Source of the DNA: Acidobacteriota bacterium
GTDB taxonomy: Bacteria > Acidobacteriota > Terriglobia > Bryobacterales > Bryobacteraceae
DNA: 54,095 nucleotides
Direction of reading: 5' to 3'
Assembly: GCA_025354525.1 (NCBI GenBank)
Contig: JANXMS010000399.1
Span: 1 to 54,095 of the forward strand
A program made the position numbers and the translations under genes. This document shows, in pieces, positions 3,595-54,095 of the stretch (its first letter is position 1; every line of letters starts with the position of its first letter). Under the pieces are notes generated by a model, which saw nothing but the letters and a program-made list of their open reading frames with translations, had not been told where the DNA came from and did no database searches.

Positions 3595-3754
3595 CGGGTT
3601 GAGCGAACCATTGGTGTAACGGGCCGGGTTGGAGTCCGAGGCAGGAGATGCCGATGACGAAGGCGGCCATCATGACGATGTCGTGGAGACTGAGATCGTC
3701 TAGCTGGTAGAGCCAGATGGCGTACGCGCCGGTGAGGTGGATGTTGAGGATGGC
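3542..3754 (-). pseudogene. NuoM C-terminal fragment (decayed duplicate)
   Basis: Read on the minus strand, this encodes a degenerate copy of the last transmembrane region of the neighbouring NuoM. AYAIWLYQ, DLSLHDIVMM and LGLQPGPLHQWF correspond to AYVLWLYQ, DLSLREIVMM and LGLQPALLLHWF in the intact gene. The frame stays open through the fragment, but the nuoM stop codon is lost and the frame ends at 3542. No start codon with a ribosome site or membrane-domain body is present. It is either the leftover of a second tandem nuoM paralogue or a partial duplication; I consider it non-functional. Confidence 0.75.
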
Positions 3755-5208: not shown

Positions 5209-5276
5209 GGGGTAACTACTCAGTGTAGCTGGCCCGGCGGGGCAGGGTATTGCCATCGCCGGGCCAGCGCCGCGGA

Positions 5277-19175: not shown

Positions 19176-20009
19176 GTGCGCGTTTCCATAATCATTCCCT
19201 TCTTTGTATTTGCAGCCTTCGGACAGGATCCGAAGGACATTTTTCGTCGTGCCGTGGAAAAGGACGAGCGGAACTACGCCGTCCGGGATCAATACACGTT
19301 TCGCGAGGACTCCACGGTCGAGTTCTTCGACAAAGACGGCAAGAGGAAGTCCGTCGAACGGACGACCAAGGACGTTCTGTTTTATGACGGGACCAAACTC
19401 GAAATGGTGGTCGCGCGGAGCGGTAAGTCATTAAACGAGCGAGAACTCCGCGAAGAGAAGGGCAAGATCGACAAGGAGATTGCCAAGATCAAGAAGGAGA
19501 CGCCAGCGGCCCGGGCCAAACGCCGGGGCGAATCGGCGGGCGCGCAAAAAGAGGAACTGGAGGGGCGACGGCAATTGCTCGAAGCGTTTGATCTTAAGCT
19601 GCTTGGCGACGCGGTTGTCAATGGCAGACCGTGCTGGCTGATCCGAGGTGTTCCGCGGGACAGCTTTAACCCCAAAGGCCGACGAGCCGACCAGTTAAAA
19701 AAATTTCAGGGCGAAGCGTGTGTCGACAAAACGACGTCTGACTGGATGCGGCTTGATATGAAAACGACCGACACGATCTCGCTCGGCCTGTTCCTTCTGC
19801 GCTTACAGCCGGATGCCGCCGTGAAGATCGACCAGACACGGATGAACGATGAAGTTTGCTTCCCCAAAACCGTAAGCGTCTCGGCGAACGCCCGGTTACT
19901 CGGCATGATGAAACGCGTCCGAATTGAAGTTAATTACAGCGACTTCAAGAAGTTCTCGGCCGAATCAACGATCACCTTTCAAGAGCCGAAAGTGTCCTCG
20001 CAGGACTAG
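19176..20009 (+). CDS. Secreted protein of unknown function
   Basis: A 277-residue protein starting at GTG 19176 with a signal peptide (MRVSIIIPFFVFAAFGQ). The mature part is rich in charged residues, with a predicted coiled helix around residues 87-125 (LNERELREEKGKIDKEIAKI) flanked by beta-like segments such as FTFREDSTVEFFDKDG and VRIEVNYSDFKKF. The layout recalls periplasmic outer-membrane-lipoprotein-sorting folds, but I cannot assign a family. Two Cys occur in GEACVD and DEVCFPK. The 3' end overlaps the convergent gene by 4 nt. Confidence 0.7.
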   Translation: MRVSIIIPFFVFAAFGQDPKDIFRRAVEKDERNYAVRDQYTFREDSTVEFFDKDGKRKSVERTTKDVLFYDGTKLEMVVARSGKSLNERELREEKGKIDKEIAKIKKETPAARAKRRGESAGAQKEELEGRRQLLEAFDLKLLGDAVVNGRPCWLIRGVPRDSFNPKGRRADQLKKFQGEACVDKTTSDWMRLDMKTTDTISLGLFLLRLQPDAAVKIDQTRMNDEVCFPKTVSVSANARLLGMMKRVRIEVNYSDFKKFSAESTITFQEPKVSSQD

Positions 20010-20923
20010 CGGACGCAACCCCGAACACTGGCTCCATCGAACCGCTGGGCCGTCAGGCAACCCTTGGTGGCGCCGTTGAAGCCGATCTTCTGATTGCCCT
20101 CGCTGATGGAGAACCCACGTGGCGAGGCCCCATTGATCCGGACGGTAGCGGGATCAATCTGCGCCGCGAGAGCTCCGCGGACGGCGAGTTGGCCGTCTTC
20201 GACTGCTAACTCCGCGTCCAAGTGGGCAAAGACTTGCACGTTGAGATCGGCACCTTTGTTCCAAGTCTTGCCGTTGGCGGCGTACTCACCCGCGAACTTC
20301 CCTTCGGTGTCGTAAAGGAACAGCTTGTCATCGGCCCCGTCCTGACGGGCGGAGCTTTTGGCCGCATTGGCACCGTGGGTGAACCACGCCTGTTTGTCCC
20401 GACCGGTACCGAGGGCCCCGAACCGATAGGTATCGCCACCGGCTACGGCGACGTTTAAGTCAGAGAAGTCGACCTGCCAGATACGATAGTGGGCACCGAA
20501 ATCGTCGTAGAGCGGAGCGCCTTCCATGACGCCATCGGCAATCTGGACCTGAGCCGATGCTTCATTGCTGCCGGGCTGAAGATCGCCACTGGCGACCTTG
20601 TTCAGGTCGCCTGCCGCCGGGCCGAAGTAGAGTCGGACGTTTGAATAAAAGTCGCCCAAGGTCGCCGGGTCAACTCCGCGGGCTCCGGGGACGGTCCAAA
20701 CGCGGACCTTGTCAACAACCCACTTCTCGCCGGGTTCGCCCAGGCGAATCTCGTCGGCGACAAAGCCTTGCTCGTACAGCGTCCAGCGAACGTTGCTCCG
20801 TTCGGTGACGCCAGCGGCGTTATTCCAGTTGGCTTGGGGCAGGCCGCGATCAACAACCAAAGTGGAAGGATCGGCCGCTACGGCCGCCATCGTCGCGATG
20901 GCGAAAAAAGTGACAAGCTTCAT
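20006..20923 (-). CDS. Secreted protein of unknown function
   Basis: A 305-residue exported protein with signal peptide MKLVTFFAIATMAAVAADPS. The mature part is acidic and beta-rich, with repeated Trp/Tyr and Asp-Gly turns (DEIRLGEPGEKWVVDKVRVW, YRIWQVDFSDLNVAVAGG). It looks like a carbohydrate-binding or choice-of-anchor type extracellular module. Two cysteines close to the C-terminus (GCLTAQ, RGCVR) could form a disulfide. I do not recognise a named family. ATG 20923 has AGGGA close by and a TAGGAT box upstream. Confidence 0.7.
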   Translation of the reverse strand: MKLVTFFAIATMAAVAADPSTLVVDRGLPQANWNNAAGVTERSNVRWTLYEQGFVADEIRLGEPGEKWVVDKVRVWTVPGARGVDPATLGDFYSNVRLYFGPAAGDLNKVASGDLQPGSNEASAQVQIADGVMEGAPLYDDFGAHYRIWQVDFSDLNVAVAGGDTYRFGALGTGRDKQAWFTHGANAAKSSARQDGADDKLFLYDTEGKFAGEYAANGKTWNKGADLNVQVFAHLDAELAVEDGQLAVRGALAAQIDPATVRINGASPRGFSISEGNQKIGFNGATKGCLTAQRFDGASVRGCVR

Positions 20924-20929
20924 ATCCCT

Positions 20930-20935
20930 ATCCTA
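20930..20935 (-). promoter_or_regulatory. Possible -10 box close to start codon
   Basis: TAGGAT on the minus strand, 6 nt before ATG 20923. The intervening AGGGAT could also serve as a weak Shine-Dalgarno. Confidence 0.25.
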
Positions 20936-20940
20936 GCAAC

Positions 20941-21516
20941 TCAATTTGCTCCGCTGACTTTGCCTAATTCGGTGTGGATGGACTGGAGGCCGAAGGGGAG
21001 GGGGATCGGCTTGGTCGTGTCGAACTTCTCCGCCTGGCGCGACGCTACGGCCGCAATCATTTGCTCGACGACGAAGGCCGGAATCCGAACGCTCTCGAAG
21101 GAGGCTTTTTCCACTGAAAACGTGGTGACGCCAACTTGGGGCTGGAGTCGTACGTCGACTTGAATCGCCCGCTTGCCATTCAAGATTGGCCGGAGCAGCG
21201 TCGGCACCGTTCCAGGGCGGAATCGCTCGACCGCGTCAAAGTCGACAGTAACCAGCGTGGCCAAATAGTTACTTGGGTAAAATTGCACGCGCATGTTATC
21301 CAGGCCCGGCCGCGGATTTACGGTCAGCGCGTGGCGGAGATACTCATTGATCTCTCCGTCGGTCAGTGTGAAGCTGACCTTTTTGACGCGCCCAGCGGCT
21401 TTTTCGTTTTTGGCAACGTTCAAATCGTTAAACAGTGTCAGGACCTTGGTCACGGCTGGAGACTCGGCTTTGATCGCCACGGACAGGAGGAGTGCGGAAA
21501 GGATCACAGTGCGCAT
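20941..21516 (-). CDS. Secreted protein of unknown function
   Basis: A 191-residue protein with signal peptide MRTVILSALLLSVAIKA. The mature part reads as a lipid-binding-like beta/alpha fold: VKKVSFTLTDGEINEYLRHAL, then VQFYPSNYLATLVTVDFDAVERF, then GKRAIQVDVRLQPQVG. This pattern (a 'self-assembly' strand pair plus helix) recalls DUF2993/LmeA-like proteins, but the match is too weak to assign. It ends 17 nt before the start of the downstream secreted protein gene on the same strand, so the two probably form an operon. Confidence 0.68.
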   Translation of the reverse strand: MRTVILSALLLSVAIKAESPAVTKVLTLFNDLNVAKNEKAAGRVKKVSFTLTDGEINEYLRHALTVNPRPGLDNMRVQFYPSNYLATLVTVDFDAVERFRPGTVPTLLRPILNGKRAIQVDVRLQPQVGVTTFSVEKASFESVRIPAFVVEQMIAAVASRQAEKFDTTKPIPLPFGLQSIHTELGKVSGAN

Positions 21517-21586
21517 GCTCTACTATCTTGTGATATCTTTGCCCCCGGCGGCTACTGTGCCAGCCAAAAAGACAGGAGACGCAATT

Positions 21587-22431
21587 ATGAAATGGATGGC
21601 AATGCTATGAGTTCTAGCCCTTCCGCTAGCCGCGCAAGAGCTTTGGGAGAATCCCGTCAAGAAGTTGATTCGCGAAGGTAAGCCGGTGATCGGCGCTACG
21701 GTGACGGTGGCGAGCGCGGACGTCGCGGCGACGCTAGCGAACATGGGCTTTGATTTTTTATGGATCGAGATGGAGCACTCGCCCATTACCCTTGAAACGG
21801 CGCGCAATATGGTGCTTGCGACGCGGGGGTTGAAGGCGGTCCCGTTTATCCGCGTGCCGGTGAACGAGCTTTGGACCGCGAAGCGAGCCTTGGACGCCGG
21901 GGCGCTGGGGGTCGTATTTCCCTTCACTTCGACACCGGAATTGGCCAAGCAAGCGGCCGATTCGACGAAGTATCCGCCCATGGTCGCCGCGGTTCGGGGC
22001 CCGGTTTGCCCTCACTCCGCTGGCCGGCCCCGGAAGGCTATGCCGATTTCGCTGATCGCAATGCCATCACCATCATCATCATCGAAGAGGTTCGGGCGCT
22101 CGACAGGATCGACGAGATTACGGCAACCAAGGGCGTCGACGTAATCTTTATCGGGACGAACGACCTCTCTTATTCAATGGGCCTCCGGGGCAAAACAGAC
22201 AACCCGGCCTATCAAGCGGCGCTGAAGAAGATCGTCGCCTCGGCCAAGAAGAATGGGAAACCGGTGGGTCGCCCAGCCGGTACGCCCGAGCAGATCAAAC
22301 AGTACATGGACGAAGGCTTTACTTTTTTCCAAGGACCGAGTGAACTGGTGCTGATGCGTACCGGTGCTGAAGCGCTGTTAAAGTCGCTCGGCAAGACCGG
22401 CTTCGATAGCAAGGATAAGCCGCTGTACTAA
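21587..22431 (+). pseudogene. Broken HpcH/HpaI-family aldolase gene (nonsense + frameshift)
   Basis: The gene would encode an exported class II pyruvate aldolase-like protein. ATG 21587 follows a good Shine-Dalgarno (CAGGAG) and starts a signal peptide, MKWMAML, but codon 8 is TGA (21608-21610). The same frame then continues VLALPLAAQELWENPVKKL and the aldolase body GFDFLWIEMEHSP, FIRVPVNE and DAGALGVVFPF. After YPPM (about 21980) one base is missing, and the protein continues in another frame with RWPAPEGYADFADRN, GVDVIFIGTNDLSYSMG and FTFFQGPSELVLM. Restoring one G after ATGG rejoins the family sequence. The rest is well preserved, so inactivation is recent or the lesions are sequence errors. 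Confidence 0.82.
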
Positions 22432-22844
22432 GCCAATTGTGCGAGCCGGATCTCGTCCTCGACCTCGTAAATCTTATCCTCGAGATTCTTGGTCGGAGAT
22501 CCGACCGCCTTCGCTGCCTCGAACTTCTTGCGGGCTCCGGCGAGGCGCCTTTCGAGCGGGCCTAGCTTCGGGTTGGGAGCGGAAGGGGGCGGGGGAGGGG
22601 CCGCCGCCACGGCTACCGGAGCGGGCGGTTTCGCCTTCTTCGCTCCTCCCGCTTTGAACTCAAACGCCGCCACGCCGGCTGGTAGCTTGAGGGCGACGCC
22701 GAAGTCAGCCCGATACTCTTCGGCGATCTGAATGGCTTCGGTCAGCAATTCGCGATAGCGCGATTCCATCGCTCGCATCGCCTCTGTCCGCAAACCTTCT
22801 CCCTGGGCCTTCCAATGGTGGTATTCAGCAATCACATCTTTCAT
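22428..22844 (-). CDS. Unknown protein with helical ends and Pro/Ala-rich middle
   Basis: A 138-residue protein without signal peptide. Residues 1-50 form an amphipathic helix (EYHHWKAQGEGLRTEAMRAM, then RELLTEAIQIAEEYRADFG). Residues 68-95 are a Pro/Ala/Lys linker, and 96-138 are a second predicted coiled helix (LERRLAGARKKFEAAKAV, KIYEVEDEIRLAQLA). I do not recognise it. It lies 6 nt downstream of the ferrochelatase gene and overlaps the convergent aldolase pseudogene by 4 nt. A TACGAT box lies 8 nt before the ATG, inside the end of the ferrochelatase gene. Confidence 0.65.
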   Translation of the reverse strand: MKDVIAEYHHWKAQGEGLRTEAMRAMESRYRELLTEAIQIAEEYRADFGVALKLPAGVAAFEFKAGGAKKAKPPAPVAVAAAPPPPPSAPNPKLGPLERRLAGARKKFEAAKAVGSPTKNLEDKIYEVEDEIRLAQLA

Positions 22845-22850
22845 CGCTCT

Positions 22851-23855
22851 TTATCGTACCCCTGGTCGGCCCGCCGGGCGCGGACAGCAATCGACCGGGC
22901 AGCCCATGGGCCGGGGAGGCAGCATGCCTACGGAAAGTGACGGAGCACCGTGAAGGTACTCCAAAACAAGTTCCCGAACCATAGTGACGAAGCGCGGATG
23001 AGTGCCGGCGGTGGCTGCGCGGAGAAACGGCAGACCCAACTCTTCGGCCAATTGCTGCGCTTCGTAGTCGAGGTCGAACATGACTTCCATGTGGTCGCTG
23101 ATGAAGCCGATGGGCTGCACCACGACGGCCGCGGTGCCCGCTGCCTTCTCGGCCCGCAGCGCGTCGAGGATGTCGGGTTCGAGCCAAGGCTGAGTTGGGG
23201 GGCCGCTACGGCTTTGGTAGACGAGCCTCCAGTCCGAAACGCCGGCACCTTCGGCAACGAGGCGGCAGGCTTCCTGCAACTGAGCGGTATAGGAGCAGGT
23301 ATCGGCCATCGAGTTCGGAATGCTGTGGGCGCTGAAAAGGACTTTGGCACCGGGTAGCGCGGCGATCGCGTCCTTGGCGCTTTCGATCATGACTTCGATG
23401 AATCCAGGGTGATTGAAGAAGCGGCGAATGGTCGTGACCTCAATGTCTCCTACGGACGCGACGGCGTCCGCGAGATTCTCCCGATACTGGCGGCAACCGC
23501 TGTAGGAACTGAAGGCGGACGTCGGAAAAGCGAGCACGCGCTTCACGCCGGCGGCTTTCATCGCGGCCATCGTATCGGGAAGGTACGGGGCCCAGTTTCG
23601 ATTGCCCCAGTAAAGCGGCAGCGTGACGCCATGGGCTGCGAAGTCCGCCGTAACCGCGGCGAGGAGCTCTCGACAGTGGGCGTTAATGGGGCTCACTCCA
23701 TCGAAGTGGTAGTAATGCTCGGCGACGTCAAGCATTCGTTCGGCCGGGACATTGCGACCGCGCAGAACGTTCTCGAGGAAGGGGATAACGTCCTCCCGCT
23801 TTTCCGGTCCGCCGAAGCCGACGAGCAAAAACGCGTCAAAGTTTTGATCTGCCAT
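22851..23855 (-). CDS. hemH: Ferrochelatase (proto- or coproporphyrin)
   Basis: A 334-residue ferrochelatase, which inserts Fe2+ into a porphyrin. The catalytic histidine is in LFSAHSIP (His177) and the acidic partner in ISDHMEVMFDLDYEA (Glu257). The substrate-binding HYYHFDGVSPIN lies at 48-58. The tail has GCPVDCCP (Cys319, 323, 324), a cysteine cluster like the [2Fe-2S] site of several bacterial ferrochelatases. The tyrosine-rich pocket may suit coproporphyrin III, but I cannot decide. ATG 23855 has the Shine-Dalgarno AGGGAAG; the long frame upstream is antisense to the next gene. It overlaps the preceding SDR gene by 20 nt. No other haem synthesis gene is present. Confidence 0.92.
   Translation of the reverse strand: MADQNFDAFLLVGFGGPEKREDVIPFLENVLRGRNVPAERMLDVAEHYYHFDGVSPINAHCRELLAAVTADFAAHGVTLPLYWGNRNWAPYLPDTMAAMKAAGVKRVLAFPTSAFSSYSGCRQYRENLADAVASVGDIEVTTIRRFFNHPGFIEVMIESAKDAIAALPGAKVLFSAHSIPNSMADTCSYTAQLQEACRLVAEGAGVSDWRLVYQSRSGPPTQPWLEPDILDALRAEKAAGTAAVVVQPIGFISDHMEVMFDLDYEAQQLAEELGLPFLRAATAGTHPRFVTMVRELVLEYLHGAPSLSVGMLPPRPMGCPVDCCPRPAGRPGVR
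22853..22858 (-). promoter_or_regulatory. Possible -10 box of a leaderless transcript
   Basis: TACGAT on the minus strand, 8 nt before ATG 22844. It overlaps the 3' end of the ferrochelatase gene. Confidence 0.3.
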
Positions 23856-24633
23856 ATTCTTCCCTAAAGGATGCCGGAATGCCGGTTCGGTAGCTAGGAT
23901 ATTTGAGCGAAATGCCAAGGCGGGATCGGATCGCCGAGCCGTCCACGCGGCGGTCCGCTCGCCGGGTTTCATCGAGCGATCCGGGGGCGACCGATTCGGG
24001 AATCGGCAGGCCCAGAAGGTCGCAACAGAAACGACTGATTTCAAGGGTCGTGCACGGCTCTTCGTCGGCAACGGGCCAGGCACCGTCCAGGTTGCTACTG
24101 AGGGCGGCGAGAGCGTGGGTGGCGAGGTCATCAACGTGAATGCGGGAGACGAAATTACTGCCGTCGCCACCGATCTTCCATTTGCCTTCTCGAATCGAAA
24201 CGTGGGCGCCGCGGCCCGGTCCGTAGATCGCGGCGGGGCGGAGGATGCAGCTTGACCACGGGCCTTCGGCTACCGACTTTTCGGCCTGAATGCGGAGCGT
24301 TTCGCGCGGCGTGCGGCCGCTGACCGGGGTCGATTCGTTGACCTCCCGTGCGTCGCCGTAGACCCCGGTGGTGGAGATGTAGACAACCCGCAGAGCCTTC
24401 CCGCGCAAGGCTGGCACGAGCAGCGGCGTGGGCTCCCAGAGGCCCTCGGGTTGGCGGATCACAGGGATCGAGTGCAGGACGACCCAGTCGTCGCCGGGGA
24501 GCGTGGCTAGAAACGAGACGTCAGGAAGCGGTAGGTTCTGCGAGTTCGTGCATACCACCTTGTGCCCGGCGGCTTCCAGGCGGCGGGCGACGCGCGCACC
24601 GGTAAACCCGGCCCCAAGAATGAGCGCCCGCAA
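23836..24633 (-). CDS. NAD-dependent epimerase-like protein (SDR)
   Basis: A 265-residue NAD(P)-binding protein starting RALILGAGFTGARVARRLEA (a GxGxxG Rossmann motif). It has VVYISTTGVYGDAR, RPAAIYGPGRGAH and SRIHVDDLATHALAAL, the pattern of the YeeZ/YbjT-like SDRs. The usual YxxxK is replaced around RETLRIQAEKSV, so the catalytic tyrosine appears to be absent and a binding or unusual role is possible. The start is inferred as TTG 24633, two bases after the upstream stop, because the Rossmann strand begins there and no ATG or GTG is available. The 3' end overlaps hemH. Confidence 0.75.
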   Translation of the reverse strand: MRALILGAGFTGARVARRLEAAGHKVVCTNSQNLPLPDVSFLATLPGDDWVVLHSIPVIRQPEGLWEPTPLLVPALRGKALRVVYISTTGVYGDAREVNESTPVSGRTPRETLRIQAEKSVAEGPWSSCILRPAAIYGPGRGAHVSIREGKWKIGGDGSNFVSRIHVDDLATHALAALSSNLDGAWPVADEEPCTTLEISRFCCDLLGLPIPESVAPGSLDETRRADRRVDGSAIRSRLGISLKYPSYRTGIPASFREEYGRSKL

Positions 24634-24635
24634 GC

Positions 24636-25295
24636 CTACATCACTCCGTATTTCGCGAAGGCTTCCACCGTGCTCATCCCGTTCTGGATGGCGATGCGGA
24701 CCAGGCTTTCGCCTTCCAGCTTTTCGAGCGCGCGGCGAATGCACTCTTCCTCAGCTGCTCGCGGCACCACCAAAACCCCATCGCGGTCGCCAAAGATTAA
24801 GTCGCCCGGAGAGACGTTAACCTGGCCGAACTGGATCGCGACGCGGAAGTCGGCGACCTCCCCGCGGGGGCCTTGATCCTGGGCGTAGCAACCGGTGGAG
24901 AAGACGGGCATGCCAACTGCGAGGATACCGGCGGTGTCCCGAGAGTAGCCGTCCATCACGGCTCCGGCCGCGCCTAACTGATGGGCACGGGTCGACATGA
25001 GTTCGCCCCAAAGGGCATACGGAGGCATCCCCGCGGCGGCCACATAAACTTCGAGCGGCTTAAGATCGTCGAGCGCCTCCAGCATCAGGCCGAATGGCTT
25101 GCGGAGCGGGTCGGCGTCCTCGGGCAGCGTGATCTCAAGAACCGGCATCGCGCGGCCTGCGACGATCATGTCGTCCCGCAGCGGCGGGGGTAGAAACTGG
25201 TGCAGCAGGCCCATCTTGTCGAGGACATCGCCCAACAAGGCGCTGAATACGCGCTCCCGCAACATCGACATTAATTCAAAATCATTCGGCAACAT
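24636..25295 (-). CDS. RraA-like protein (HMG/CHA aldolase or regulator fold)
   Basis: A 219-residue member of the RraA/MenG-like superfamily. These proteins include 4-hydroxy-4-methyl-2-oxoglutarate aldolase and RNase E inhibitors. The family segments are ALLGDVLDKMG (19-29), MIVAGRAM, GAAGAVMDGYSRDT (with the conserved Gly-Arg/Asp type site), MPVFSTGCYAQDQGPRG and VSPGDLIFGDRDGVLVVP (162-179). The metal-site residues Asp115 and Arg119/Asp120 in MDGYSRD look present, so aldolase or decarboxylase activity is possible. ATG 25295 is fixed by length and a GGAAG upstream. It lies between the ankyrin gene (17 nt upstream) and the SDR gene (2 nt downstream). Confidence 0.85.
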   Translation of the reverse strand: MLPNDFELMSMLRERVFSALLGDVLDKMGLLHQFLPPPLRDDMIVAGRAMPVLEITLPEDADPLRKPFGLMLEALDDLKPLEVYVAAAGMPPYALWGELMSTRAHQLGAAGAVMDGYSRDTAGILAVGMPVFSTGCYAQDQGPRGEVADFRVAIQFGQVNVSPGDLIFGDRDGVLVVPRAAEEECIRRALEKLEGESLVRIAIQNGMSTVEAFAKYGVM

Positions 25296-25312
25296 GCTCA
25301 GGTTCGCTTCCT

Positions 25313-26482
25313 TTAAAGGATTTCGGCCAATTCCGTATACCCATTTTCCTTGGCGATCTCGCGAGGGGATTTGCCCGACTTGTTGCGGAGCCGTCGGTTC
25401 GCCCCGCGTTCGAGCAAAAGTTCGACCACGGCTAACCTTCCCCAAGAGGCGGCGAGAAAGAGTGCCGTCGCACCAGTCTCTCGCTCCTGCAGGTCGATTG
25501 ACGCGCCTCGGTCGAGCAGCAGCGCCGCCGCCGACCGCTGGCCAGCCAGGGCCGCATCGTGCAGCGCGCTCGCCCCAGTGGCGTTTAGCACCGTGACTTT
25601 GCTTCCCGCTCCGAGCAGCACCTGGAGAACCTCCAAGTGCCCCTTCAGCGCGGCATCGTGGAGCAGGGTGGATCCCAATCCAGTGAGCGCGTCGCCGCGA
25701 CCGCCATGGGCAATATACCACTGCACCAGCTCGATTTGCCCTGCGACCACCGCGGCTTCGAGTCGGGACTGGACCTTGTCGAGCTGGGTGCCGCCCGCCA
25801 ACAGGACGTCCGCCACCGCAACCTGGCGAAAGCGCAACGCAAGATCGAGCGGCAGAGTGCCCTCGCCGTCCAACGCGGTCGGTGACGCCCCTGCCGTTAA
25901 CAGTAGCTTGGCTGCTTCGGCGTGACCCTTCTGGGCCGCCGCGTGCAACGGCGTTGCCTTGGTGCGCGGGTTTCGATGCTTGGCGTTGGCGCCGTGCCGA
26001 AGCAAGATCGTAATGATCGTCGCCTGCCCCTTCCACGCGGCTTCTTCCAGCGGCGTCACGCCGCTTTCGTCCTCTTCGTCCACCCTCGCGCCCTTCGTGA
26101 TCAGAAACTCCACCAACTCTTCGTATCCGCGATTGGCGGCGAGGTGAAGAACTGTCGAACCCGCCCGGTCGCGCGCCTCCAATTCGGCACCGCGGTCGAG
26201 GAGCATCGCAACGATTGGCCCGCGATTGGTGATGATCGCGTAGTGGAGCGGGGTCGATCCGCCTTCGGTGTGGCGGGCATTTACGTCGGCTCCGGCCGTC
26301 AGCAGAGCTTCGATAACGTCCCGGTGTCCGCTCCAGGACGCGTCGTGAAGCGCGGTGCCCCCGAGCGTATCCGGCGCCGAGACCGGCACTCCGGAGCGCA
26401 ACAATTCCAACACACGTTGCACGTCTCCGGCGCGTGCTGCCGTATGCAGTTCACTCGCCAGCACCGGCAGCAGCGCCAGCAA
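25313..26482 (-). CDS. Ankyrin-repeat protein
   Basis: A 389-residue protein made almost entirely of about eleven ankyrin repeats, visible by their TPLHxAA-type cores: GGTALHDASWSGH, GSTPLHYAI, GSTVLHLAANRGY, GVTPLEEAAWKGQ, ATPLHAAAQKGH, GSTLLHDAALKGH, GASALHDAALAGQ, GATALFLAASWGR and others. It probably mediates protein contacts. The start is inferred as TTG 26482, 5 nt after the citrate synthase stop, giving the hydrophobic leader MLALLPVLASELHTAARAG; a GGAG lies 12 nt before it. A clear ATG is not available without entering the citrate synthase gene. The short leader may or may not be a signal peptide. Confidence 0.85.
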   Translation of the reverse strand: MLALLPVLASELHTAARAGDVQRVLELLRSGVPVSAPDTLGGTALHDASWSGHRDVIEALLTAGADVNARHTEGGSTPLHYAIITNRGPIVAMLLDRGAELEARDRAGSTVLHLAANRGYEELVEFLITKGARVDEEDESGVTPLEEAAWKGQATIITILLRHGANAKHRNPRTKATPLHAAAQKGHAEAAKLLLTAGASPTALDGEGTLPLDLALRFRQVAVADVLLAGGTQLDKVQSRLEAAVVAGQIELVQWYIAHGGRGDALTGLGSTLLHDAALKGHLEVLQVLLGAGSKVTVLNATGASALHDAALAGQRSAAALLLDRGASIDLQERETGATALFLAASWGRLAVVELLLERGANRRLRNKSGKSPREIAKENGYTELAEIL

Positions 26483-26486
26483 TCCG

Positions 26487-27758
26487 CTACTTGCGATTCT
26501 CCAAAGTGACGTAGTCGCGCTTCCCTTCGCCCAGGAAAATTTGTCGCGGGCGGCCAATTTTTTGATCCTCGTCGCCAAGCAACTCTTCCCATTGCGCGAG
26601 CCATCCGGACGTCCGGGCAACTCCGAACAGAACAGTGAACATGTCTGCCGGGAAGCCCATCGCCTCATAAATCAAGCCGGAGTAGAAATCGACGTTGGGA
26701 TATAGCTTGCGCTTGATGAAATACTCGTCGCTCAAAGCGATCCGCTCGAGTTCCACAGCCACGTCCAGGAGCGGGTTTTTGCCGGTAACAGCGAACACCG
26801 ATTCCGCCGTCTGCTTCACGATTCTGGCGCGCGGATCGTAGTTTTTGTACACCCGATGGCCAAAGCCCATTAAACGGACTTCGCCCGCCTTGACGCGGGT
26901 GATGAACTCCGGAATGTGCTCGACGCTGCCGATCTGGCGGAGCATCTTCAATACCGCCTCGTTGGCACCGCCGTGAAGAGGGCCAAAGAGCGCACCGGCG
27001 GCCGCGGAAAGCGACGTAAACGGATCGGCTTGGGAGCTTCCTACCAAACGCATGGTGGAGGTTGAACAGTTCTGCTCGTGATCAGCGTGCAGAATGAACA
27101 AAACATCGAGCGCACGCACGAGCACCGGATGCGGCTCTTTTTCAAAAAGCATGTGCACGAAATTGTCGACGAGGCCCAGTCCCGCTTTCGGCCGAATCAA
27201 CGGGAGGCCCTGTCCGCGACGGTAGGCGTATGCTGCCAGCGTCAGTACTTGGGCAATTGCCCGCAGAATAAATTCCTTGCGCACCGTTGCGTCTAAAACC
27301 TTGCGCGATTCCGGATAGGCGGCCGAGAGTGCGGCGAGGCCGGCCATCCACATCGACATCGTGTGCGCGTGCTGCTCAAATCCATCGAAGAACCGATCAA
27401 AGAAGGCCGGAAGTTCCACCCGTTCGAGCAGTTCGCCATTAAAGTGCGCCAGTTGACTGGCATTGGGCAGTTCGCCGTACAGCAGCAAATAAGCGCTTTC
27501 GATGTAGGAACCTTCGTCCAGTTGCTCAATCGGATAGCCCCGATAGTTGAGGATTCCCTTGTCGCCATCAATGAACGTGATCCGGCTTTTGCACGCCGCC
27601 GTATTCATGTAGGCGGGATCATAGGTCATCATGCCGAAATCATTGGCGTCGACTTTGACTTGCCTCAAATCGGTGGCCTTGATGGTGCCATCTTTAATGG
27701 GAAGCTCGTATGTCTTCGCGGTTCGGTTGTCGATCAGGGTAAGTGTGTCTGCAGGCAT
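26487..27758 (-). CDS. gltA: Citrate synthase
   Basis: A 423-residue citrate synthase of the TCA cycle (acetyl-CoA + oxaloacetate). Catalytic residues are all visible: His in HADHEQNCSTS, His in MGFGHRVYKNYDPRA and Asp in PNVDFYSG. GPLHGGANEAVL, the substrate loop, is present. It is a type II (longer, Gram-negative-like) enzyme. It is followed after only 4 nt by the ankyrin gene, an odd partner for a TCA enzyme, and lies 44 nt downstream of the thioredoxin-like gene. Confidence 0.96.
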   Translation of the reverse strand: MPADTLTLIDNRTAKTYELPIKDGTIKATDLRQVKVDANDFGMMTYDPAYMNTAACKSRITFIDGDKGILNYRGYPIEQLDEGSYIESAYLLLYGELPNASQLAHFNGELLERVELPAFFDRFFDGFEQHAHTMSMWMAGLAALSAAYPESRKVLDATVRKEFILRAIAQVLTLAAYAYRRGQGLPLIRPKAGLGLVDNFVHMLFEKEPHPVLVRALDVLFILHADHEQNCSTSTMRLVGSSQADPFTSLSAAAGALFGPLHGGANEAVLKMLRQIGSVEHIPEFITRVKAGEVRLMGFGHRVYKNYDPRARIVKQTAESVFAVTGKNPLLDVAVELERIALSDEYFIKRKLYPNVDFYSGLIYEAMGFPADMFTVLFGVARTSGWLAQWEELLGDEDQKIGRPRQIFLGEGKRDYVTLENRK

Positions 27759-27802
27759 GCCGGTAAGAGTCTCTGACAGCTTATCGAATTTTTAACGAGG
27801 AA

Positions 27803-28342
27803 CTATTTCTTTTTCGCTGCGGGCTTCGGGGCCAGCGCCTTGTCGATCTCGGCATCGAGCCCTGAGCCTTCAAAGATGCCGCGGGTAGCCTCGGAATGGC
27901 CAAAATCATTTCGGATGAACCCGCTCTGGTCTATCACGAAAAGATGAGGAACGCTCAAGGAAGGCCGCTGCGGGGTGATCATCATGTACGAGGCTGCGAC
28001 CTGCCCGCAATCGAACAGCATCGGCGAAGTGACCCCGTTCTCCGTCATGTACTTTTTTACGGTGGCTTGATTGTCAGGAGGATTGACGATGTGCAAAACG
28101 GCGATCTTGTTGCCGTATTTCTGCCTCGCCTTCTCAAGCGTGGCAGTTAAAGTCTTGCAGTGCGGACAACTCGTCTGCATGATCTCGATCAAAACCACAC
28201 GACCCCGCAGATCGGCCACATCATGATAGTTCAAGTTCAAGTCAGGCAGTGCAAACCCGGGAGCGCGCCGCCCGGAAAGTTCCCCTTCTGCGAAGAGGGG
28301 CAATAGAGTCATCAAGAGAGCAGCCAAAAGTCGGAAAAGCAT
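27803..28342 (-). CDS. TlpA/peroxiredoxin-like thioredoxin-fold protein, exported
   Basis: A 179-residue protein with signal peptide MLFRLLAALLMTLLPLFAEG and a thioredoxin fold. The active site is SCPHC (redox Cys pair, within MQTSCPHCKTL, residues about 55-65), and the cis-Pro region is VPHLFVIDQSGFI. The PDL...HDVADLRGRVVLIEI segment is of the AhpC-TSA/TlpA type. It probably acts as a periplasmic thiol oxidoreductase. A strong Shine-Dalgarno (GGAGGGG) precedes ATG 28342, and TACACT lies 11 nt before the ATG. Confidence 0.87.
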   Translation of the reverse strand: MLFRLLAALLMTLLPLFAEGELSGRRAPGFALPDLNLNYHDVADLRGRVVLIEIMQTSCPHCKTLTATLEKARQKYGNKIAVLHIVNPPDNQATVKKYMTENGVTSPMLFDCGQVAASYMMITPQRPSLSVPHLFVIDQSGFIRNDFGHSEATRGIFEGSGLDAEIDKALAPKPAAKKK

Positions 28343-41074: not shown

Positions 41075-41658
41075 ATGCGATTCCTGTTGTTGCTGGCTGC
41101 CCTGCCGCTGCTCGCCGCCCGATCAGAATAAGATCGCCGCCGACACCCGGGAAAAGAAAAACGTCGAGACCTTCCAATACAAGCCCGGACTCTCGCTAAC
41201 CATGATGGGTCGCAGCGTCGTCCCCCGTCCCGCTGTCCTCTGAATCCACGGCGGCGGCTAGACCGGCGGCAGACCGGAGATGTTCCTCCCGGCTCTCGAA
41301 AACAACGCGTCCCAAGGTGGGGCTGTCGGCTTCACGCTCCAATTCCGCCTCGGCTCCGTCGCGCCCGCTGTCCAAGACGTCGAAGCAGCCCTCGTCTGGA
41401 TCCGCCGCCACGCCAAGGAACCTGGGCGTCGATCTCCAACGCATCATCCCTGCCCGATCTCACCGGTAAATGGATTAGCCGCACCAGTTCCCTCGGAACA
41501 ATCCCGCCGCCTCTCGCCGCTCTTCCATGTTGACGCCCAGACCCCGCCCGTACTCACCCTTCACGGCCAAAAACATTACGGTGGTGCCCCAAGCTGACCT
41601 TCTACCCCGGTTTCAGCATGCCTTCGTCGTGCCGGACTACACCGCGGCGCTAACTTGA
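41075..41658 (+). pseudogene. Decayed exported alpha/beta-hydrolase (esterase) gene
   Basis: The start ATG 41075 encodes a good signal peptide, MRFLLLLAALPLLAA, but the frame reaches TAA shortly after. In the next frame the family sequence resumes with KIAADTREKKNVETFQYKPG and PAVL. It then hits TGA (41241-41243) before IHGGG, and TAG (41259-41261) after it: the oxyanion motif should be WIHGGGWTGGRPE, so both Trp codons are now stops. Later parts, DVEAALVWIRRHAKE and, in another frame, TVVPQADLL, are still visible. The conserved serine region is lost. The gene is clearly dead. Confidence 0.82.
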
Positions 41659-47309: not shown

Positions 47310-47957
47310 ATGGAACTTAAATTTTCCAAAAAATCGGATCGAATATTAAGAACGGTGGGCTTGGTCATCGCTTTCGCGGTGATTGGCGGAGCGAGTACCC
47401 TGTACTACGCAACGTTGCCGACCACCCTGGAACCCGGTTATCAGCCCAAACAACCAGTCCCCTACAGCCATAAGCTGCATGCTGGCAATATGGGGATGGA
47501 CTGCACCTACTGCCACACGTCGGTATTAAAAGCTGCCTACGCGTCGATTCCGCCCACGCAGACGTGTATGAACTGTCATACGAAGGTGAAAGAGAAGAGC
47601 GTCGTGCTCGAACCGGTTCGAGCTAGCTGGGCTTCTGGCGACTCCGTGCCGTGGATTAAGGTTCACCGCCTGCCGGATTATGTCTTCTTCAATCACAGCT
47701 CCCACACCACCGTCGGCGTCAGTTGCGTTACCTGCCACGGTCGAATTGACCAAATGGTGGAAGTCAAGCAAGTTCAGACCCTAGCGATGAGCTGGTGTCT
47801 GGAATGCCACCGCAATCCCGCTCCGAATCTGCGCCCGGCTAAATTCGTCACGAAATTGGATTGGAAGCCCGAGGGGGACCCTGCGGTCTTTGGGCGGGAA
47901 ATGATCGCGAAGAAGGGCATTAACCCGCCCGTAACATGTTCAGGGTGTCACCGATGA
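47310..47957 (+). CDS. actA: Alternative Complex III subunit A, pentahaem cytochrome c
   Basis: A 215-residue membrane-anchored cytochrome of the quinol:electron-acceptor oxidoreductase ACIII. One N-terminal helix (about 12-35) is followed by five CxxCH sites: CTYCH (65-69), CMNCH (86-90), CVTCH (139-143), CLECH (163-167) and CSGCH (210-214). Single histidines in HKLH, KVHR and NHSSH can supply sixth ligands. Pentahaem ActA is the standard form. The stop overlaps the start of actB by 4 nt. First gene of the act operon, with a 242-bp upstream region for promoters. Confidence 0.95.
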   Translation: MELKFSKKSDRILRTVGLVIAFAVIGGASTLYYATLPTTLEPGYQPKQPVPYSHKLHAGNMGMDCTYCHTSVLKAAYASIPPTQTCMNCHTKVKEKSVVLEPVRASWASGDSVPWIKVHRLPDYVFFNHSSHTTVGVSCVTCHGRIDQMVEVKQVQTLAMSWCLECHRNPAPNLRPAKFVTKLDWKPEGDPAVFGREMIAKKGINPPVTCSGCHR

Positions 47958-50900
47958 TCCAGATAGAAGGAATTGGCAATCAGACCGGTAAGAAGTTCTG
48001 GCGGAGCCTCAACGAACTCTCTTCCACGCCGAAGTTCCGGCAATGGCTAGGCCAGGAATTTTCGGAGGATGTCACCGATTTACTCGATTCTGGCTCCCGC
48101 CGTCGCTTCATGCAGATCATGGCCGCTTCGATGGGCCTCGCCGGTCTCACGGCTTGTCGTCGGCCGGTCGAGAAAATCCTGCCCTTTTCGAAAGGGGTCG
48201 AAGGCCTCGTTCACGGTGCGCCCCAGCACTACGCCTCGGTCATGTCCCTCGGCGGACAAGCTCACGGGGTCGTGGTCGAAGCCATCGACGGCCGTCCGAT
48301 TAAAATCGAAGGCAATAAGAACCACCGTTTGTCTAACGGTGCCGCCAATGTCTGGGCCCAATCTTCCGTTCTGAATCTCTACGATCCGGATCGGTCGCAA
48401 AAAGTCATCGAGAAAGGCAAAGAAAGCACATGGGAGGCCTTCCAGGTCGCCTTCAAGGGTATGAGTCTTGCCGATGGGGAAGAACTCCGAGTGCTCTCCG
48501 GAGCGGTCGTCTCGCCGACGTTGGCTGGGTTACGCGCCGGGCTCATCGCTAAGTACCCCAAAGCGAAGTGGGTCGAATACGAACCTGTTAACGAAGACGA
48601 GTCGTTGGCCGGTACAGAGCTAGCGTTTGGAGATCGGCTTCGTCCCCAATTTGACCTCAGCAAGGCGGACGTCGTCGTTTCGCTCGACTCCGACTTCCTC
48701 CAGTTGGACAACCCGGGCTTGAATGTGATCCGGGAGTTCGCCCGCCGCAGAAAGGCGGTCGACTCCATGGTCCCCGCTGGCCACGCCACGCCCCACAAGA
48801 CGGCCGCTCATGGCGAAGAACACAAGAGCGAACCTAAAGCGGAGCACAAAGAATCCGCTCCCCCCGCCGCTGGTGAGACCCCTGCCGCCCCGGTCGGCCC
48901 CGGCATTAACCGTCTCTACGTCGTCGAAAGCAACTTTACCCTCACCGGTGCCCAAGCCGATCACCGACTTCGGCTGCGTGCCTCCGACGTCAGCAGTTTT
49001 GCTGCCGATCTAGCCCGCGAAATCTCCGCTCTCCCCCAAGGCCTCAAGATCCTTGGCCAATCGGACAAGTTCCTCTCGGTCGTCGCCAAAGACCTGCTAG
49101 CGCACAAGGGACGAGCCATTGTGATCGCCGGACCCCGCCAGCCGGCTCGGGTTCATGCCCTTGCCGCACTGATGAACCAAGTGCTGGGCAATATCGGTGA
49201 AACTGTCTCCTACACCCGCCCAACCGCGGCCGCTTCGGGAGCAGGAATCGTCGCCCTAGCCAAGGAAATGGCTGCGGGCCAAATAAAGACGCTGGTCGTA
49301 CTGGGGAGCAATCCGGTCTACAGCGCACCTGCGGACCTCGATTTCGGCGCGAAATACAAATCCGTACCGACGACCATCCAGTTAAGTTCCGAACTCGACG
49401 AGACCGCTCTCGCCTCAACGTGGCACCTGCCTGAGTCGCACTATCTCGAGAGCTGGGGCGACGCCGTCTCCTCCGATGGCACCGTATCCCTACAGCAGCC
49501 TCTAATTGAACCGATCTTCAAAACAAGATCGGCGATTGAAGTCGCCGCCCTGCTTGCCGGCACAGCGAGCCCTAAGGGCTACGACTTGGTGAAGTCTCAG
49601 TCCAAGCTTGCCGAGCCCGCCTGGCGTCAAGGACTCCACGACGGCATTGTGGCCGGAACCCAAGCCTCAGCCATTAAGGCTGTCGCCAACGCCAAAGCCG
49701 TCGAAGCCGCCATCGTTGCAGCGCCCAAGCCTGCGCCGGGCCTCGAAGTCACCTTCTTCCCGTCGGCTTCCAGCTACGACGGCAGGTTCGCAAACAACGC
49801 TTGGCTGCAGGAAGCCCCCGAGCCGATGACCAAGGTCGTCTGGGACAACGCCGCCCTCGTCAGTCCCAAGACAGCGAGAGAGCTGAAGCTCGAAGACGGT
49901 GCCGTGCTCAGCATCGAACGCCGTGGCCGCAAAGTGGAAGCGCCGGTCATGATCCAGCCGGGACATGCCGATAACTCCGTCACCCTAACGCTGGGATACG
50001 GCAGAAGCAAGGTAGGCCGGGTCGGAACCGGAATCGGCTACAACGCCTACGCCCTCCGCACGAGCGACGCCATGGGAATCGCGACTGGCGTCACCGTAAC
50101 CAAAGTTGCCCGTACCTACACTCTCGTCACGACGCAAGAGCATCACGATCAAGCGGGTCGCCCTGTCGTCCGCGAAGCCTCGGTGGCGGCTTACAAAGAG
50201 GAGCCCGCCTTCGCCTCCCATGAAGACGCTCACGTCGAACTGTTCCAGCTCTTCGATTCCTACGACTATTCGAAGGGAAATCAGTGGGGCATGGTCGTCG
50301 ACCTCCAATCCTGCATTGGTTGCAACGCCTGCCTGGTAGCCTGCCAATCGGAGAACAACATTCCAGTCGTTGGTCGCGATCAGGTCAGCAGAGGTCGCGA
50401 GATGCACTGGATTCGACTCGACCGGTACTTCACCGGCGGCGAAGAGGATGCCCAAGTCGTCTATCAACCCATGGCCTGCCAACAGTGCGAAAACGCTCCT
50501 TGCGAATCTGTTTGCCCGGTTGCCGCCACCGTTCACAGCCCGGAAGGGCTCAATGACATGGCCTACAATCGCTGCGTGGGCACTCGCTACTGCGCCAACA
50601 ATTGTCCTTATAAAGTCCGTCGGTTTAACTACTACAACTGGCACAAAGACATCGAAGAAGTCAGCAAGATGGTTTTCAACCCTGACGTAACCGTTCGCAT
50701 GCGCGGCGTGATGGAAAAGTGCAATTATTGCGTCCAGCGGGTTCAAGAAGTCAAAATTGCCCACAAGGTCGCAGGTCGTACCCCGATCCAAGATGGCGAT
50801 GTCCTCACCGCCTGCCAGCAGACGTGCCCCGCTGAAGCCATCACCTTCGGAAACATTAACGACCCCAATAGCGCCGTAGCAAAGTTGAAGAATAACAACC

Positions 50901-50989
50901 GCAACTACACGCTTCTTCACGAACTCAACATCAAGCCGCGCACAACCTATCTGGCTAAAGTGCGCAATCCCAATCCGGAGCTTGCCTAA
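47954..50989 (+). CDS. actB: Alternative Complex III subunit B (MoCo-like domain fused to Fe-S domain)
   Basis: A 1011-residue fusion as usual in ACIII. The N-terminal two thirds look like a molybdopterin oxidoreductase without a metal site. An internal twin-arginine-like segment ([21 protein letters not shown], cut here, near residue 48) directs the complex outward. The C-terminal Fe-S domain has four cysteine clusters: [40 protein letters not shown] and [16 protein letters not shown] low-complexity Lys/Glu/Pro/Ala linker (about nt 48780-48905) is an insertion. Start ATG 47954 overlaps the actA stop. Electrons pass from quinol through these clusters to the haems of ActA. Confidence 0.95.
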
Positions 50990-52416
50990 TGGCCGATCTT
51001 ACATTCGATCCCAAGGATGTCGCCCAATTAAGCCCTTCGCTCGTAGACGGTCGTCCGTCCCTCCACGATGTGACCGAAGCGGTGAGCATTCACACCGAGA
51101 TCGAGACCCACCGCAACTGGTACATCGCCCTCGCCATTAGTGGCAGCGTAACCTTGTTGCTCGGCTCGATGCTGGCCTACCTCGTCGCTACCGGAATCGG
51201 CGTCTGGGGCAATAACAATCCCGTCGGCTGGGGTTGGGACATCACCAACTTCGTCTTCTGGATCGGCATCGGTCACGCCGGCACCTTGATCTCGGCCATT
51301 CTGTTTCTGTTCCGTCAGAAATGGAGAACTTCAATCAATCGCTTCGCCGAAGCGATGACCTTGTTCGCAGTCGCTTGCGCCGGCATTTATCCTCTTGTGC
51401 ACGTCGGTCGTCCCTGGCGTGCCTATTGGCTGTTCCCCATCCCCAATGCGGATCTCAATATGTGGCAGAACTTCCGTAGCCCACTCTTGTGGGACGTCTT
51501 CGCGGTCTCCACTTACGCCACCGTCTCCGCCCTCTTCTGGTACGTCGGTCTTATACCCGACTTGGCCACGATTCGAGATCGGGCCACCACAAAACTTCGC
51601 CACACGATCTACGGAATCGCTTCCCTCGGCTGGCGCGGCTCGGCCACCCACTGGAAGAACTACGAAAAAGCCTATATGATCCTCGCGGGTCTCTCGACGC
51701 CTCTCGTGCTCTCCGTTCACACCATCGTTTCGTTCGACTTCGCGGTCTCGATCATTCCTGGTTGGCACACCACCATCTTCCCCCCCTACTTCGTCGCCGG
51801 AGCCATCTTCTCGGGCTTCGCTATGGTGATCACCCTCATGGTCATCGCCCGGTGGGTCTTCAAAGTCGAACACCTCGTCACGATCACTCACCTCGAGAAT
51901 ATGAACAAAGTGATTCTCGCCACGGGCACCATCGTCGGCTACGCGTACGCGACCGAATTCTTCATCGCCTGGTACTCGGGCAACCCATATGAAATGTACA
52001 CCTTCGTAAATCGGGCCATGGGGCCCTACGCTTGGGCATATTGGACGATGGTCTCCTGCAACGTGATCTCACCCCAGTTTTTCTGGTTTAAGAAACTGCG
52101 CACGAGCATCCCGTTCATGTTCGTTCTCTCCATTTTTGTCAATATCGGGATGTGGTTCGAGCGTTTTGTCATCATCGCGACCAGCTTACACCGAGACTTC
52201 CTGCCCTCCTCGTGGGGATACTTCCGCCCCACCATCGTAGACATTCTGACCTTCTTCGGAACCTTCGGTCTGTTCATTACGCTGTTTGTGTTCTTCACCC
52301 GCTTCTTGCCCATCATCGCCGTCAGCGAAGTGAAAGGCATGATGATCCAGGCCGAACACGAGAAACACTATCTGCCTGCAACGACTGGCTCCACTGAGCC
52401 GGTAAAGGTTCACTAG
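50989..52416 (+). CDS. actC: Alternative Complex III subunit C (NrfD-like quinol-binding membrane protein)
   Basis: A 475-residue integral membrane protein of the NrfD/PsrC family with about ten helices, for example [21 protein letters not shown] and [37 protein letters not shown] contains the family's conserved quinol-site region with His and Gly. Later, [20 protein letters not shown] and [15 protein letters not shown] are typical. It should hold the quinol oxidation site and may take part in proton movement. The start codon overlaps the actB stop by one base (TAATG). Confidence 0.94.
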
Positions 52417-52424
52417 AGCACGCC

Positions 52425-52964
52425 ATGGCTGATCAATCCCCCATTCACGGCGTCGTCGCCGACTTCGACTCTCCGGATACCCTTCTCGACGCGGTCAAAG
52501 CCGCTCGGGCAAAGGGCTACACTAAAATGGAAGCCTACACCCCGTTTCCTATTCACGGTATCGATGAGGCGATGGGTGCCAAGCAATCCATCCTCGGCTA
52601 CATTGTGCTTTGTGGAAGCGTCACCGGCTTCACGACCGCAGTCCTGCTGCAATGGTGGACGGGGACCATCGCCTATCCCCTCGTGATCAGCGGCAAGCCC
52701 CTCTTCGCCTTCGAGTTCGGTTTTCCGATTATTTTCGAGCTAACTGTCCTGCTCTCTGCCTTCGGTGCCGTGTTCGGAATGCTTGGCCTAAACGGCTTGC
52801 CCCGTCTAAATCACCCCATATTCAACTACTCCGGCGTGGCCGGTTCATCCGATGATCGGTTCTTACTGGTCATTGAAGCCTCGGATCGAAACTTCGACGT
52901 CACCGCCACCCGTGAATTCCTTTCTACACTCGGCGCCGAAAAACTGGAGGTCATCGAAGCGTGA
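52425..52964 (+). CDS. actD: Alternative Complex III subunit D (DUF3341)
   Basis: A 179-residue DUF3341 protein. N-terminal GVVADFDSPDTLLDAVKAAR and YTKMEAYTPFPIHGIDEAMG are hallmarks. Two membrane helices (about 63-82 and 101-125) follow, joined by a short loop with GTIAYPLVISGKPLF. The C-terminal tail is soluble (DRFLLVIEASDRNFD). ActD contacts ActA/ActC in known structures. It is 8 nt after actC and its stop overlaps the GTG of actE. Confidence 0.94.
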   Translation: MADQSPIHGVVADFDSPDTLLDAVKAARAKGYTKMEAYTPFPIHGIDEAMGAKQSILGYIVLCGSVTGFTTAVLLQWWTGTIAYPLVISGKPLFAFEFGFPIIFELTVLLSAFGAVFGMLGLNGLPRLNHPIFNYSGVAGSSDDRFLLVIEASDRNFDVTATREFLSTLGAEKLEVIEA

Positions 52965-53572
52965 CCAAAAATCTCTTCCCTATCCTCACCGCCCTTGTCT
53001 CCCTGGTTGGCCTGACTGGCTGTCTCACCCCGAGCCGTGACACCACGCCACTCCAAATCTGGGATGACATGAAGAAGCAGCCGAAGTACAAGCCCCAACA
53101 GCAAAGCCCCTTGTTCTCGGACAAACGAACCAGTCGACGCCCGCCAGAGGGCACCGTCGCAATTGGCCAAATGAACGCCGACGACGCTTCCCATTGGGGT
53201 ATCGTTAACTCCCAATACGTCGGACGCAGCCCACTTCCCCTCACGAAAGAGCTGCTGGCCCATGGGCAAAACAAATTCAATATCTACTGCGCGCCCTGCC
53301 ATTCGCAAATCGGCAACGGAAAGGGTATTGTCGCCCTTCGCGCCGGGGCTGTTTTTCAGCCGGCCAACCTTATGGAGCCTCGCGTGAAACAGATGAACGA
53401 TGGCGAACTCTACTCAGTCGCGAGCGAAGGCCGTCGCAACATGATGGGCTATCGGAATCAAACCTCCGACCACGACCGTTGGGCGATCATCGCCTACCTG
53501 CGGGCCCTTCACCGCGCTACCAGCGGCAGCATTGAGGACGTTCCTGACAGTCTTCGGGCGCAATTGAAATAG
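52961..53572 (+). CDS. actE: Alternative Complex III subunit E (monohaem cytochrome c lipoprotein)
   Basis: A 203-residue cytochrome starting at GTG 52961, inside the actD stop (GTGA). The lipobox LTGC (Cys21) predicts a lipid anchor. One haem site, CAPCHSQIGNGKG (near residue 110), and a distal Met in the NMMGY or MEP regions form the monohaem domain. ActE accepts electrons from ActA-type haems and passes them to cytochrome oxidase or a carrier. actF follows 20 nt later. Confidence 0.94.
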   Translation: MTKNLFPILTALVSLVGLTGCLTPSRDTTPLQIWDDMKKQPKYKPQQQSPLFSDKRTSRRPPEGTVAIGQMNADDASHWGIVNSQYVGRSPLPLTKELLAHGQNKFNIYCAPCHSQIGNGKGIVALRAGAVFQPANLMEPRVKQMNDGELYSVASEGRRNMMGYRNQTSDHDRWAIIAYLRALHRATSGSIEDVPDSLRAQLK

Positions 53573-53592: not shown

Positions 53593-53898
53593 ATGAGTAA
53601 ACACCACCACCACGACGCGCCCAAAGACAACTACTACCTCCCCGTCGCTACCTGGGAGAAGGGCCGCAACGTTCTTCTCGCTCTGTTTGTCATCAGTTGG
53701 GTCGCTGCGCTGGCCGGCTTCAGCCTGGATCACAAACAGTTTTTCCCCTCCTACTTGGTCGCCTTCTTTTTCGGCGCAGGCATCATCATCGGCTCAGCGC
53801 TCTTCATCATGATGCAACACCTCACCGGCTCAGCCTGGAGCGTGCCGCTTCGTCGGCTCATGGAAAACATCATGATGACCATGCCGATCCTGGCGAAG
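53593..53898 (+). CDS. actF: Alternative Complex III subunit F, 5' part only (frame lost at junction)
   Basis: The first ~100 codons of the DUF-type membrane subunit ActF (normally ~400 residues with about ten helices). A natural His run (MSKHHHHDAP) precedes WEKGRNVLLALFVISWVAAL and YLVAFFFGAGIIIGSALFIM, then MQHLTGSAWSVPLRRLMENI, all in family style. After MMTMPILA the frame continues with unrelated sequence (KCGSIGHH...) until 54039, and that stretch is the antisense of a GNAT gene. The gene is therefore cut at about 53875-53898. Confidence 0.85.
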
Positions 53899-54095
53899 TG
53901 CGGCTCCATCGGCCACCACATCGCAGAGCCGACCACACGCCCAATGGCATCCTCGGCCACCACGCCATGCCCGAGCCGGATCAGCATCTCCCAATCCTCA
54001 GGCCGGTGCGACCATTGCACTCCGATCGACAGCGCATGAAGGGATGGCACGTCGGCCGCCACGATTGGACGGACCACAAGCTCGTAGCTGTCCAG
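53875..54095 (-). CDS. GNAT acetyltransferase N-terminal fragment, cut at both sides
   Basis: On the minus strand, from the window edge, LVVRPIVAADVPSLHALSIG then VQWSHRPEDWEMLIRLGHG and VVAEDAIGRVVGSAMWWP form the start of a GCN5-related N-acetyltransferase. FARIGMVI should lead into the acetyl-CoA site (QGxGxG/A), but the frame turns into actF antisense there. A GTG lies at 54077, yet the frame is open to the window end, so the true start may be outside. The break coincides exactly with that of actF. Confidence 0.75.

Follow-up and report, generated by a model that had tools for sequence, protein, structure and literature searches.

The right-hand end of this contig raises the question of why two genes on opposite strands, actF of an act operon and a gene for a GNAT acetyltransferase, are broken at the same point, and whether the bases beyond that point belong beside the operon at all. 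The window, by which we mean the whole stretch of 54,095 nucleotides that was analysed, is the complete contig C389 (G000:C389) of a 7.3-Mb genome in 633 contigs, so that its right end is also the end of the contig. This fragmentation suggests that the source genome is metagenome-derived. We conclude with high confidence that C389 ends in a chimeric assembly join, and that the true sequence continues via approximately 10 missing bases into another contig of the same genome, C134. The features concerned are as follows.

47310..53572, plus strand: act operon (alternative complex III), upstream part, from the ORFs
47310-47957, plus strand: actA; match to a QrcA/QrcB/QrcC-type family, below the cut-off
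47936-50989, plus strand: actB, fused; QrcA/QrcB/QrcC-type match below the cut-off, model for a TAT-variant molybdopterin oxidoreductase passed
50989-52416, plus strand: actC; matches the solved ACIII subunit C (6f0k_C), E 3e-208
52425-52964, plus strand: putative actD, named from operon order
52961-53572, plus strand: putative actE, named from operon order and a c-type cytochrome match
53593..53895, plus strand: genuine 5' part of actF (codons 1-101), in amino acids 92% identical to ActF of the same-genus genome G006
53873..53895, no strand assigned: join, 23 bases that fit actF (plus) as well as the GNAT gene (minus), from alignment to relatives
53896..54095, minus strand: tail of foreign affinity, inner 5' part of a gene for a GNAT N-acetyltransferase; 86% (amino acids) and 87% (DNA) identical to a Sphingobium MAG

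A break shared by two genes

On the plus strand, the reading frame from 53593 carries ActF sequence first and then runs on out of its family. A base-by-base alignment with actF of G006 gives 240 identical bases out of 280 over 53593-53872, and actF keeps to its family as far as 53895 (nucleotide homology end 53894-53895). Beyond this the match is at background level, with 48/200 bases identical to G006 and 49/200 to a second genome of the genus, G017, over 53896-54095. The minus-strand GNAT gene, followed inwards from position 54095 where the contig ends, tracks its relative in the Sphingobium MAG (locus L044) as far as 53873, with 172/200 identical bases over 53896-54095 and 23/23 over 53873-53895; the match then falls to 3/13 over 53860-53872. 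An independent BLAST search likewise placed the left limit of GNAT homology at 53873. The two-sided break is thus directly visible in the alignments. The first-pass annotation had held that both genes are broken, and lose family homology together, at a single point; this stands, the alignments ending at 53895 (actF) and 53873 (GNAT), while the coordinates which it gave, 53875-53898, were 2-3 bases off and are here refined to 53873-53895.

Over the same 23 bases the actF genes of G017 and G006 are identical to the window at 21 and 18 positions, respectively. The length of 23 bases is that inferred from relatives of both parents and not from the parents themselves. Codon 96 of actF encodes Thr (ACC), where the relatives examined have Ser or Asn. 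It could be of GNAT origin, and the stretch really shared would then be shorter than 23 bases. Were unrelated sequences joined bluntly, they would agree over 23 bases by chance with a probability of about 1e-12, and the shared bases therefore probably mediated the join. In this genome they occur once; a search for a second copy found none, even allowing 2 mismatches in 22 bases.

The remainder of actF and its neighbours

It had been proposed that the rest of both genes be looked for on other contigs, and for actF the search succeeded. When the C-terminal part of the G006 ActF was used as a query against the same genome as the window, there was one strong match, to contig C134 (6724 bases). The missing part of ActF lies there directly, as 297 C-terminal residues which are 94% identical to G006 and reach base 6722 of 6724, the contig stopping within actF, 10 bases past the join. 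C134 starts directly with actF and has no foreign bases at this end. The gene order which follows is actF, a small protein, and SCO1-, coxB-, coxA-, coxC- and coxD-like genes, the SCO1 and cox names being assigned by reading the sequence. The identity of actF is given by the match of its C134 part to the solved ACIII subunit ActF (6f0k chain F; E 6e-66) and by its position in the act operon, where the upstream ActC matches 6f0k_C.

A comparison with relatives places the two contigs side by side. Up to 53894 (G006 position 74730), practically all of C389 is colinear with contig C125 of G006: C389:41682-53894 aligns to G006:C125:62521-74730, and C134:6722-138 aligns to G006:C125:74744-81353. The sequences of C389 and C134 are also adjacent in G017:C3 (45913 / 45926). 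According to both genomes, exactly 10 bases separate the last good base of C389 from the start of C134, and in both actF is uninterrupted across the equivalents of the two contigs; the ActF frame is uninterrupted in most genomes of the genus. Since C389 and C134 adjoin with the same 10-base gap in G006 and G017, an uninterrupted actF across the two contigs is the natural state of this gene. In a further genome of the genus, G001, a contig also ends within actF, 65 bases past codon 101 (L061 / G001:C147:25781). This was considered as a similar break and rejected; the sequence is plain actF to its end, and we take the position to be due to chance.

The comparison also brought out some irregularities in other parts of the window. 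At 41119-41121 approximately 1.9 kb is absent relative to G006 and G017, both of which are longer by this amount between the flanks. The absence takes out most of a large G006 frame with endonuclease/exonuclease/phosphatase-like, amidohydrolase-like and hydrolase-like parts and leaves its signal-peptide start, after which comes a stop. The rest of the genome has only amidohydrolase paralogues at 52-56% identity, so that the deletion may be real, although it may also be a misassembly. At 3703-3752 and 5226-5297, near strong AT skew, the alignment is interrupted or overlapping in G006 coordinates, which suggests a repeat-length difference. Lastly, the left of the window has a GC skew of about +0.2 and the right one of about -0.17, the turn lying near 20-28 kb (about 20000-28000); this could reflect gene orientation or a replication terminus region.

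Origin of the tail

The GNAT tail begins approximately 8 codons after the start of its Sphingobium relative and runs off the end of the contig. Relatives were sought in the contigs of one genome per species. The nearest is that in the Sphingobium MAG (JAHFPU010000044.1), at 86% amino acid identity and 87% DNA identity over 223 bases, followed by matches in Frigidibacter, Halomonas and others at about 60%; the nearest relatives are in the Proteobacteria. No relative of the tail was found in 18 same-genus genomes, and the family and order yielded only weak matches (E ~1e-3 to 1e-5, approximately 28-37% identity). The foreign affinity of the tail is therefore a direct observation, and the taxonomic affinity differs across the join: the ActF side is 92% identical to the same genus, while the GNAT side has its best match in the Sphingobium MAG. 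The remainder of the GNAT gene, the other half of the proposed search, was not found in the same genome, nor did 198 genomes around the Sphingobium MAG contain a closer donor than that MAG.

The full-length relative is a two-domain protein (Pfam PF13508, PF00583 and PF18014); a Pfam search with the short chimeric 114-amino acid frame gave no match. We also considered whether the tail came from a plasmid and rejected this, the plasmid relatives, mostly rhizobial, reaching only about 62% amino acid identity. Base composition, GC content and GC3 were likewise set aside as evidence, the tail being not clearly different from the act genes in these respects.

Most likely, a stray fragment of an acetyltransferase gene, Sphingomonad-like in affinity, was joined to actF and makes up the last 200 bases; its source is probably a bacterium of that affinity from the same sample.

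Formation of the join and comparison with known systems

The feature is an ordinary assembly artefact and not biology. The true sequence represented by C389 would run from the act operon into actF, then through the approximately 10 missing bases, and on into C134. Where C389 ends, up to 23 chance-shared bases, which read ...MMTMPILA in the actF sense and, on the other strand and by chance, the conserved GNAT segment ARIGMVI, would have let the assembly (or a chimeric molecule in the library) pass into some 200 bases of another organism's GNAT gene. Everything seen would be accounted for by k-mers colliding by chance when a mixed community is assembled, which we take to be the probable mechanism, or else by a chimeric library molecule. 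By a random-sequence estimate, approximately 30 chance-shared 21-mers are expected between this genome and one co-assembled genome of 4 Mb, while a large community would give thousands. Chimeric contigs that arise in metagenomic de Bruijn graphs from k-mers common to several species are a recognised failure (PMC7299287). A simple unresolved fork would, however, give an overlap of k-1 bases between C134 and C389; instead 10 bases are missing, which such a fork does not account for.

A chimeric library molecule, produced by PCR template switching or ligation, would be an artefact of the same general kind, and we regard it as a possible but less likely source. The tail of about 200 bases would be close in length to one read or one insert, and template switching could be primed by the shared bases; nothing specific speaks against such a molecule, which predicts the same foreign tail as does a k-mer collision.

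We consider it very improbable that a horizontally acquired fragment of Sphingomonad-like DNA really interrupts actF in this strain, with the contigs breaking within the insert or at its edges. The tail is indeed foreign to the genus, and the halves of actF are on separate contigs which each stop at this point and leave 10 bases missing, but an insertion is difficult to reconcile with the actF end of C134, devoid of foreign bases, or with a genome in which no further GNAT piece was found. Its boundary would fall within the GNAT reading frame, at a stretch common to both genes and where no mobile-element feature was seen, and it would break a respiratory gene that most relatives keep uninterrupted. 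The inversion or deletion breakpoint in the organism's own chromosome, which the first-pass annotation had offered as an alternative, would also make two genes lose homology at one point, but is scarcely credible given that C389 and C134 adjoin to the base in two relatives, that 18 genomes of the genus lack the GNAT gene, and that the GNAT remainder, which an inversion must place elsewhere, was not found in this genome.

That annotation's other proposal, that the assembly was joined by way of a short stretch common to both genes, is upheld by the rest of actF lying flush at the end of C134 with synteny intact in two relatives, and is further borne out by the foreign GNAT tail whose remainder is absent from the genome. 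It was also right that the final ~200 bases are not the true neighbour of the act operon, as actF continues on C134 in place of the GNAT tail. The finding matters only as quality control. Bases 53896-54095 (the last 200) should be trimmed off, and this organism should not be assigned the GNAT fragment; C389 and C134 are to be regarded as neighbours, and the act-cox gene order is then complete.

The chimeric join resembles the inter-genome chimeric contigs of short-read metagenomes, in which unrelated genomes are joined via a short exact shared stretch (here inferred from relatives), in that the tail is at a contig end and the true continuation is on another contig, C134. It differs from them in that the true contigs, C389 and C134, are without overlap, 10 bases being missing between them. 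The tail resembles the two-domain GNAT N-acetyltransferases (PF13508/PF00583 plus PF18014), being 86% identical to the N-terminal part of the Sphingobium MAG protein; unlike the full proteins it has 74 codons only and is not native to the genome. Unlike the ActF of PDB 6f0k, the actF gene is split over two contigs in this assembly, but its C134 part matches chain F over nearly the whole length, and the operon order, with actF beside the other act genes and followed by oxidase genes, is like that of alternative complex III.
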